From positions 1 through 43,172 of the forward strand of contig PFBL01000024.1 of NCBI GenBank assembly GCA_002773355.1: 43,172 nt of DNA, read 5' to 3'. Position 1 is the stretch's first letter, and the number at the start of each line of letters is the position of its first letter. Below are positions 16,575 through 40,283 of the stretch, piece after piece. A program made the translations under genes and the position numbers. A model generated the notes under the pieces. That model ran no database searches. It was not told the origin of the DNA and saw only the letters and a list, made by a program, of their open reading frames with translations. This stretch comes from Candidatus Kaiserbacteria bacterium CG10_big_fil_rev_8_21_14_0_10_56_12. Its GTDB lineage: Bacteria > Patescibacteriota > Minisyncoccia > Phycocordibacterales > Phycocordibacteraceae.

Positions 16575-16891
16575 AGCGGGGTAGAGGAGAGGTACCTCGG
16601 GAGGCTCATGTGAAGAATGTGACCCTATCCGGCAACGGGTAGCGGAAAAACTCTCTAACGTGCTGGAACACCGTGAGAGCTTCTTGTGCTACAGCGTGAT
16701 CCGAAAGGATGGGCGCGAATGCTTGAAAAACAAGAAGATTCGGCAATCAGCAGCCAAGTCTCGGTATGCCCGGGAAAGGTTCAGAGACTATAATGGGAGA
16801 GTCCCTAAGGGATTGTGGTATAGTCCATTCCTGCTAGAAACAGTAGGTGTAAAAGAACCTCCAGACGCCGGTTCGATTCCGGCCCCCGCAA
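16575..16891 (+). tRNA. Initiator tRNA-fMet(CAU), interrupted by a group I intron
   Basis: The exons (16575-16609 and 16856-16891) join to a normal initiator tRNA. The acceptor AGCGGGG faces CCCCGCA, leaving the first pair (A1, A72) unpaired, an initiator feature. The D arm is GAGG-AGAGGTA-CCTC. The anticodon stem GGAGG/CCTCC closes the loop CTCATAA with anticodon CAT. The T arm is GCCGG-TTCGATT-CCGGC and the discriminator is A. CCA is not encoded. The intron sits directly after the anticodon, between U36 and A37. Confidence 0.9.
16610..16855 (+). ncRNA. Group I self-splicing intron (246 nt) in tRNA-fMet
   Basis: The 5' exon ends in U and the intron ends in G (omega-G), as group I splicing requires. 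The P7 strands GACTA (16786-16790) and TAGTC (16821-16825) lie within near-consensus R and S elements (TTCAGAGACTAT and TATAGTCC). P1 can form between exon TCAT and intron GTGA (within 16610-16625), giving the conserved U-G pair at the splice site. A GAAA-capped hairpin near 16830-16847 fits P9. No homing endonuclease is encoded inside. Confidence 0.9.
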
Positions 16892-16901
16892 CAAGCAAAG
16901 G

Positions 16902-39128: not shown

Positions 39129-39202
39129 GCCGGCGTAGCTCAGTTAGTTAGAGCGTGGGATTCATAAACCCAAGGTCCCAGGTGCAACTCCTGGCGTCGG
39201 CA
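39129..39202 (+). tRNA. tRNA-Met(CAU), elongator type
   Basis: The acceptor GCCGGCG pairs with CGTCGGC (one G-U), the anticodon loop is TTCATAA with anticodon CAT, and the discriminator is A; no CCA is encoded. Two oddities: the anticodon stem has an A31-A39 mismatch, and the T loop reads TGCAACT, with G where the almost invariant U55 should be. A CAU tRNA could also be tRNA-Ile read by lysidine, but the overall sequence favours elongator Met. Confidence 0.85.
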
Positions 39203-39258
39203 CAAACACGGAGTGCGAGACAGTGTGGACATTACGGGGTTATAGTAATGTCCTGTCA

Positions 39259-39270: not shown

Positions 39271-39960
39271 ATGCCGGTCCCCAAGCGACTCAATCAGCAA
39301 TTCTTCAGCACGTGGTCACCGTCGATGGTATATGTACTTGGGTACTTCGCCGCGGACGGTTCTATGATTTTAAATAAGCGCGTGGCGCGTTTTATTGAAT
39401 TTACGAGTATTGACCGCGACTTGCTAGAACGTGTCAGTCACGTGGTTGGCTCAAACCACAAAATCCAGATACGAAAAAAACGGCGAGAAGCATGGAATAC
39501 GCAATATCGACTCCAAATCGGCAGCAAAGCTTGGTTTGAAGATCTGTCGCGCCTTGGGTTTACGCAAGGCAAAAGCACATCGCTCATGTTACCTAATATT
39601 CCGAAGAAACACATCCCAGACTTCGTCCGGGGATACTTTGATGGTGATGGTTGCGTGTATTTCAACAAAGAGCTTCATTTCGCTAGCCGTAAGAAACCCA
39701 GGGCTATACTGTCGACGCTTTTCACAAGCGGATCAAAACCTTTCCTCGAGTCTCTGTGGAAGCAGCTTAAGGACCATGATGTTTTGGGAGGTTCGCTGCA
39801 GAAAAAGCAGCGTGGTTTTGAGCCTCGCTTCAGTCATAAAGACAGTGTTGCACTTCATCGCATGATGTATCATACTGACCAAGCCTCGGAATTGTCCTTG
39901 CCACGGAAACGACTGAAGCTCACGATGGCAATCCGAGATTTAGAAAAGATGCGGGAGTAA
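39271..39960 (+). CDS. LAGLIDADG homing endonuclease, free-standing between two tRNA genes
   Basis: A protein of about 229 residues with both LAGLIDADG helices: VYVLGYFAADGSM (catalytic Asp near residue 30 of the 39271 start) and DFVRGYFDGDGCV (about 126-138). It is therefore a single-chain, double-motif enzyme that should cut a 14-22 bp DNA target. It is basic (many Lys/Arg) and has more A+T than its neighbours, which fits recent arrival. It is not inside an intron: tRNA-Met ends 68 bp upstream and the intron-bearing tRNA-Asp starts 8 bp downstream. It has its own -10 box. Confidence 0.93.
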   Translation: MPVPKRLNQQFFSTWSPSMVYVLGYFAADGSMILNKRVARFIEFTSIDRDLLERVSHVVGSNHKIQIRKKRREAWNTQYRLQIGSKAWFEDLSRLGFTQGKSTSLMLPNIPKKHIPDFVRGYFDGDGCVYFNKELHFASRKKPRAILSTLFTSGSKPFLESLWKQLKDHDVLGGSLQKKQRGFEPRFSHKDSVALHRMMYHTDQASELSLPRKRLKLTMAIRDLEKMRE

Positions 39961-39968
39961 GTAATCTA

Positions 39969-40255
39969 GCGGGAGTAGCTCAATTTGGTTAGAGCGCCGC
40001 CCTGTAGACGTGCAGCTTTCTCGAGAAATTGGGATTGAAACTTCCTGGGATATCGGTGAAGGCTAAGTTCGCATGATGTGAATACGCGAACACCGAGGGA
40101 ACCCCTCAGGAGATTGCTTGAGGGGGCACCGTAGAGACTAGATACCGGGACCCTAAGGGTTCTCAAACCTATGGTGAAGATATAGTCCACGCCTCTATGA
40201 AAATAGTGGATCAAGTGCACGGCGGAGGTTGCGGGTTCAAGTCCCGTCTCTCGCG
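39969..40255 (+). tRNA. tRNA-Asp(GUC), anticodon interrupted by a group I intron
   Basis: Exons 39969-40005 and 40218-40255 join to GCGGGAG...CTCTCGC with discriminator G, a tRNA-Asp identity element. The anticodon stem CCGCC/GGCGG closes the loop CTGT+CAC, so the anticodon GTC appears only after splicing: G34 and U35 are in the 5' exon and C36 is in the 3' exon. The variable loop is short, which rules out Tyr, Ser and Leu. The T arm is GCGGG-TTCAAGT-CCCGT. CCA is not encoded. Confidence 0.88.
40006..40217 (+). ncRNA. Group I self-splicing intron (212 nt) in tRNA-Asp
   Basis: The 5' exon ends in U and the intron ends in G. P1 forms between exon CTGT and intron GCAG (within 40010-40016), giving the conserved U-G pair at the splice site. 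P7 strands are GACTA (40136-40140) and TAGTC (40183-40187), inside near-consensus R (GTAGAGACTAGA) and S (AAGATATAGTCC) elements. A GAAA-capped hairpin near 40192-40209 fits P9. It has no inner ORF of its own; the endonuclease gene is just upstream of the tRNA. Confidence 0.92.
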
Positions 40256-40264
40256 CAACTGGAG

Positions 40265-40283
40265 AAGCCCTTCGGGGCTTTTT
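40265..40283 (+). terminator. Intrinsic terminator after tRNA-Asp
   Basis: AAGCCC-TTCG-GGGCTT followed by a short T-run (40279-40283), 9 bp after the tRNA end. Confidence 0.85.

Follow-up and report, generated by a model that had tools for sequence, protein, structure and literature searches.

The window considered here, a 43,172-nt stretch of DNA (contig C16) from the 632-kb, 97% complete genome of Candidatus Kaiserbacteria bacterium CG10_big_fil_rev_8_21_14_0_10_56_12, carries a tRNA-Asp gene whose anticodon is interrupted by a group I intron devoid of any open reading frame (ORF). Immediately upstream lies a free-standing gene for a LAGLIDADG homing endonuclease. The named relatives of this genome are Candidatus Kaiserbacteria and other Patescibacteria. 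The first-pass annotation of the locus described the intron and overlooked the endonuclease gene, which is the more informative part. The features of the locus, all on the plus strand, are as follows.

39271 to 39960, plus strand: free-standing gene for a LAGLIDADG homing endonuclease of 229 aa, counted from the ATG at 39271; open from a GTG at 39223, with a TAA stop 8 bp before the tRNA (Pfam, AlphaFold2 (AF2)/Foldseek, family position).
39337 to 39360, plus strand: LAGLIDADG motif 1, LGYFAADG; among 112 relatives, the acidic D is present in every row with a letter there.
39622 to 39651, plus strand: LAGLIDADG motif 2, FVRGYFDGDG; acidic D in 111 of 112 relatives.
39969 to 40005, plus strand: tRNA-Asp 5' exon, 37 nt, ending C32 U33 G34 U35 (ARAGORN at the locus and on the joined exons; covarying exon anticodon stem in 24 homologues).
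40006 to 40217, plus strand: group I intron, 212 nt, ORF-less, last base the terminal (omega) G (RF00028, covariation, insertion at this site in 41 of the 397 genomes searched in the order).
40218 to 40255, plus strand: tRNA-Asp 3' exon, starting C36 A37 C38, CCA not encoded (ARAGORN on the joined exons).
40002 to 40005, plus strand: exon strand of P1, CUGU, with its partner GCAG at 40012-40015 and a U.G pair at the 5' splice site (invariant).
40136 to 40140, plus strand: 5' strand of P7, GACUA, with its partner UAGUC at 40183-40187 (invariant).
40044 to 40048, plus strand: 5' strand of P3, with its partner at 40145-40149 (four of five pairs covary).
40189 to 40190, plus strand: 5' strand of P9.0, with its partner at 40215-40216 (both pairs covary).
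40259 to 40283, plus strand: terminator-like hairpin and T-run directly 3' of tRNA-Asp (sequence).
39129 to 39203, plus strand: intact tRNA-Met(CAU), upstream, which in relatives usually adjoins tRNA-Asp (tRNA search).
39217 to 39246, plus strand: weak promoter-like site ahead of the endonuclease gene, close to chance (2 found against 1.2 expected in shuffles).

The tRNA-Asp(GUC) gene extends from 39969 to 40255 (ARAGORN sets its end at 40256), and its intron separates U35 from C36 (CUG-U|C-AC), so that the precursor lacks a GUC anticodon. The intron matched the Rfam group I model RF00028 with 52.0 bits (E 1.8e-10), above the gathering score of 50. With introns allowed, ARAGORN returned tRNA-Asp(gtc) i(38,212); it made no call on the unspliced gene and recognized a normal tRNA-Asp(gtc) once the exons were joined. 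The coordinates of the gene and the intron length of 212 nt given by the first-pass annotation were right, the covariance model search that it proposed supported a group I intron, and the P1, P7 and terminal G that it had listed were all present. It had also named a second intact tRNA-Asp, with the present copy untranscribed, or a misfolding of the joined exons, as grounds for rejecting the split gene; the joined exons read as tRNA-Asp, and tRNA, DNA and pattern searches found no intact tRNA-Asp in the 97%-complete genome, our genome-wide statements resting on such searches.

The intron structure was drawn by hand and evaluated on a covariation alignment of 24 full-length homologues that included the exon ends. 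Pairing was possible in 95.4% of the structure cells, and changes on both sides were observed in 26 of the 50 pairs, a number reached by none of 500 shuffles, while sliding the partners abolished the signal. Covariation was detected in P2, P3, P4, P5, P6, P9 and P9.0 as well as in the exon anticodon stem; P1 (CUGU/GCAG) and P7 (GACUA/UAGUC) were invariant in 24/24, P8 was partly aligned (68% of cells paired), and an intron-final G closed the intron in 30/30 parsed loci. The conserved P7, the core helices, the P1 with its U.G pair and the terminal G assign the element to group I; its ribozyme fold is supported by covariation, and it is predicted to self-splice. The genome being metagenome-assembled, a non-functional split gene or an assembly artefact was considered, and is already contradicted: the same site and structure recurred in 41 genomes, with compensatory changes that extend to pairs formed by the two exons, and an intact copy was lacking in 40 of these 41, leaving this explanation next to no credibility.

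The protein encoded upstream matched the Pfam domain LAGLIDADG_3 (PF14528; 6e-14), also present in 12/12 members of its family tested, and a sequence search of the PDB related it to 2dch (4e-8). Its AF2 model (predicted local distance difference test score 88) retrieved the same structure with Foldseek (E 2.5e-9), the top matches being LAGLIDADG endonucleases and maturases. Its acidic motif residues and alpha-beta fold place it among the LAGLIDADG endonucleases, and it would be expected to cut DNA. Given this fold, the presence of I-AniI and the bI3 maturase among the Foldseek matches and the adjacency of gene and intron, the protein could instead be a splicing maturase kept for tRNA-Asp splicing. 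We consider this improbable: the majority of the family adjoins tRNA genes of several isotypes that carry no intron, the gene is absent from 17 intron-bearing genomes, and the catalytic acids are conserved, though bifunctional enzymes exist.

The first ten relatives from named genomes, belonging to Patescibacteria and Omnitrophota, all adjoined a tRNA-Asp gene, with or without intron, and nine of the ten lay upstream of it. Profile searches then recovered relatives in 122 of the 397 genomes of the order and in 40 of 379 genomes of a phylum sample. A same-strand tRNA began no more than 160 bp downstream, and mostly no more than 25 bp, in 116 of 122 distinct readable loci, and these tRNAs were Asp (80), Leu (19), Cys (14), Lys (2) and Phe (1), the Asp count including two ARAGORN calls of Tyr/His that were reassigned by their CUGU|CAC junction. 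The query had been drawn from Asp neighbours, and the Cys and Leu clades were recovered by sequence alone. On the endonuclease tree, tRNA isotype changed 6 times (minimum 5) versus 32.9 times in shuffles, and the Cys endonucleases formed a single clade (support 100/100): the endonuclease clades are specific to their tRNA (Asp, Cys, Leu). The family to which the host itself belongs holds three separate endonuclease lineages, which points to horizontal movement.

Ratios of nonsynonymous to synonymous substitution of ~0.07-0.14 in close pairs, with and without intron, place the endonuclease family under strong purifying selection. At 70 of the 80 Asp loci, the reading frame of the endonuclease continues into the tRNA and reaches its first stop there, at T8-A9-G10 of tRNA-Asp in 46 loci; the gene of the window belongs to the minority with its own stop ahead of the tRNA. 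Where the frame enters the tRNA, cleavage by RNase P would remove the stop codon of the endonuclease. Selection and overlapping frames could both reflect a domesticated host function, as a tRNA-linked regulator or processing factor. The patchy distribution in the order and in the phylum sample, the polyphyly in one host family and the decay of the gene in several genomes render this very unlikely.

To survey the intron, a covariance model (R1) covering its 3' half and the Asp 3' exon was searched over the 397 genomes of the order; removal of the tRNA-Asn matches left 41 genomes with an Asp intron. Leaving out G194, an intron genome whose neighbouring sequence is hidden by contig ends, as well as G070 and G282, 23 genomes held both an Asp endonuclease and an Asp intron, 17 the intron only, 36 the endonuclease only and 318 neither (odds ratio (OR) 12, p=2.4e-11). 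With genomes merged into 90 families, the same classes counted 20/6/12/52 (OR 14, p=3e-7); for single genomes, with only positively read tRNA-Asp genes taken as intronless, they counted 23/17/35/221 (OR 8.5, p=7e-9). The arrangement of the window (39271-39960 with 40006-40217), in which a free-standing endonuclease gene adjoins an intron-split tRNA-Asp, therefore recurs in 23 genomes of the order, and the two elements co-occur beyond chance (OR 8.5-14, p 3e-7 to 2e-11), as collaborative homing entails. By an independent pattern search, 257 genomes had an intact tRNA-Asp, and in one of them an intron copy was present as well.

Traces of the endonuclease were also found where the gene itself is missing. 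Of 15 testable loci that have the intron and lack the gene, 8-9 retained a C-terminal remnant of 16-50 codons directly before the tRNA, which scored 6-38 bits versus at most 3.4 bits for shuffles, and such a remnant was seen at only ~1 of 44 intronless loci (Fisher p=2e-5), indicating that the intron tends to outlast the endonuclease gene. The introns of loci L101 and L130 are ~49% different from the others, occupy the identical position and have the same endonuclease family beside them; two intron types at one site lend indirect support to the anticodon site as the target. The best explanation of these observations is that two co-operating selfish elements surround one essential gene, and we favour as probable that an intron without an ORF spreads together with a free-standing endonuclease, by collaborative homing, at a bacterial tRNA gene. 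The endonuclease would most likely cut tRNA-Asp genes free of the element, and repair templated by the donor would copy the endonuclease gene together with the intron, which lies a further 37 nt along. In the donor itself, the intron would keep the anticodon site from being cut, and the endonuclease gene would later decay while the intron persists. Cleavage of DNA and its position, mobility of the elements, and splicing in vivo are predictions of this scheme.

Several points weigh against collaborative homing. The R1 model was trained on introns adjoining the endonuclease, and other introns have perhaps been under-counted; ~100 genomes (about a quarter) were not positively scored for tRNA-Asp, an intact tRNA-Asp with one mismatch being present in about a third of 40 genomes from this set; and family collapsing, with no host tree, is the association's only control for host kinship. 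Moreover, the tree of Asp endonucleases requires that the intron was gained or lost at least 21 times, and intron and endonuclease distances were barely correlated (Mantel r 0.03, p 0.33; within type A, r 0.19, p 0.06), so the two look like elements meeting repeatedly and not like one fixed unit. Finally, 36 of the 59 Asp loci with an endonuclease in the order are intronless, and no protective tRNA variant was evident in the anticodon loop of these carriers by eye, without a formal test. With an ordinary-looking anticodon loop, such carriers need another block to self-cutting, or else the target lies at the tRNA 5' edge.

The latter option is the core of the main rival explanation, solo homing, whereby the target spans the tRNA 5' edge and is destroyed by insertion of the endonuclease gene alone, the intron being an independent passenger that arrives by reverse splicing or other routes. 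Consistent with it, the endonuclease gene is always at the tRNA 5' edge, at a distance that does not vary, the Cys and Leu subfamilies occupy this edge without introns, and so does the gene at the 36 intronless Asp loci. The tree of the introns does not follow that of the endonucleases, and related introns exist in tRNA-Asn (U35|U36), where no full endonuclease gene was found in the fetched loci. Solo homing nevertheless gives no reason why intron and endonuclease co-occur so strongly or why intron loci retain remnants, and as the flank upstream of tRNA-Asp is not conserved, half of its target would vary. We regard it as possible but rather unlikely. The synteny of apbE and aroB, considered for defining an empty site, matched in one relative only.

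Collaborative homing, the reading that we prefer, has a counterpart in cyanophage S-PM2, in which F-CphI and the psbA group I intron act together (PMC6083498). Both systems combine an ORF-less group I intron with a free-standing endonuclease gene adjoining the intron-bearing gene, and in the phage the intron blocks self-cutting. They differ in that the phage target is a protein-coding gene and its enzyme of Endo VII type, whereas a chromosomal tRNA gene of a bacterium and a LAGLIDADG enzyme are involved here, and in that cleavage was shown in the phage and is predicted here. In the Candidate Phyla Radiation (CPR), rRNA introns with LAGLIDADG enzymes are common, and for one of these enzymes, I-ShaI, target cleavage has been demonstrated (Tsurumaki et al. 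2024, PMC11270868). These insertion sequences share with our locus CPR hosts, group I introns and LAGLIDADG endonucleases, but their enzymes lie inside the intron and are mostly single-domain, whereas those described here are free-standing, carry two motifs and stand beside tRNA genes. Likewise, a group I intron in a tRNA anticodon loop with an endonuclease aimed there is already known, which resembles our case in both respects except that the endonuclease is intron-encoded. Group I introns in tRNA genes of CPR genomes are mentioned in PMC8172020.

In the open-access literature searched, we found no report of collaborative homing in cells or at a tRNA gene, the process being known from phages, nor of a family of free-standing endonucleases located at the 5' edge of tRNA genes. 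A 2025 preprint by Nakagawa and colleagues (bioRxiv 10.1101/2025.07.03.662931), whose title reportedly announces a 'novel insertion site', already deals with group I introns in tRNA genes of Patescibacteria; its site may be the 35/36 site. More tentatively than for the locus itself, we suggest that an isotype-specific, tRNA-riding family (Asp, Cys, Leu) is widespread in Patescibacteria and reaches Omnitrophota, that its usual T8-A9-G10 stop would be stripped by RNase P, limiting its expression, and that its repeated pairing at tRNA-Asp with unrelated group I introns would be the first known case of collaborative homing on a cellular chromosome and the first at a tRNA gene. If true, this would help to account for the spread of ORF-less introns in tiny genomes through tRNA genes that are essential, and would provide a new set of LAGLIDADG enzymes directed at tRNA genes. 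Dozens of independent bacterial loci display the intron with the endonuclease, the endonuclease alone, the intron with a decayed endonuclease, or neither, and the presence of these four states makes the cycle of invasion and loss directly comparable.

Additional properties of the endonuclease family were examined. The hypothesis that its 3' end carries the tRNA promoter was rejected, no position-specific -10 box being present upstream of the tRNA, as was a T at position -1 of the tRNA as a mark of insertion, which is just as common at loci without the endonuclease gene. A phage origin was also set aside, since phage LAGLIDADG matches were only distant (25-31% identity) and none was found in IMG/VR. 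One member (L245 1046-3001, G654:C46) shares a single 1035-aa frame with an apparent DNA topoisomerase I, which replaces the tRNA neighbour. Four others (L153, L154, L242 and L243) lie directly 3' of tRNA-Leu(TAA), followed in L153 and L154 by tRNA-Lys(CTT), and members from Omnitrophota and Gribaldobacteria (L074-L076, L079) bear an N-terminal extension resembling a helix-turn-helix.

Splitting of tRNA genes in the order is not confined to tRNA-Asp, as related group I introns, 192-564 nt long, divide tRNA-Asn(GUU) at U35|U36 (L231-L235, L237-L239, L060, L063). ARAGORN intron calls of tRNA-Thr(tgt) proved to be such split tRNA-Asn(GUU) genes and were taken out of the Asp counts. Many tRNA-Asp genes of the order have an unusual T loop, GGGGTCAGCACCC and not GGTTCAA (L046, L102, L107, L118, L123, L125, L128, L129 and others), through which intron-bearing tRNA-Asp escapes ARAGORN. 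Both tRNA-Asp and tRNA-Asn split at 35/36 are overlooked or miscalled by standard tRNA finders.

Within the genome of the window, the scan of all tRNAs suggested by the first-pass annotation identified a second split gene, tRNA-fMet (16575-16892), with a 246-nt group I intron (16610-16855) inserted after U36. As that annotation had stated, the fMet and Asp insertion sites are one nucleotide apart and the two introns have little sequence in common, only stretches of at most 10 nt. Its further suggestion of an intron-rich tRNA set did not hold: only Asp and fMet are split, versus ~38 intact tRNA genes, and both tRNA introns of the genome fall within the window. A group I match of 41.7 bits, below the Rfam cut-off, was also obtained in a 23S rRNA-like sequence (L003 1501-1778; contig C17, 11435-11712, minus strand), and ARAGORN assigned an anticodon of four bases (ttag) to a tRNA-like gene at G000:C13:1322-1394.
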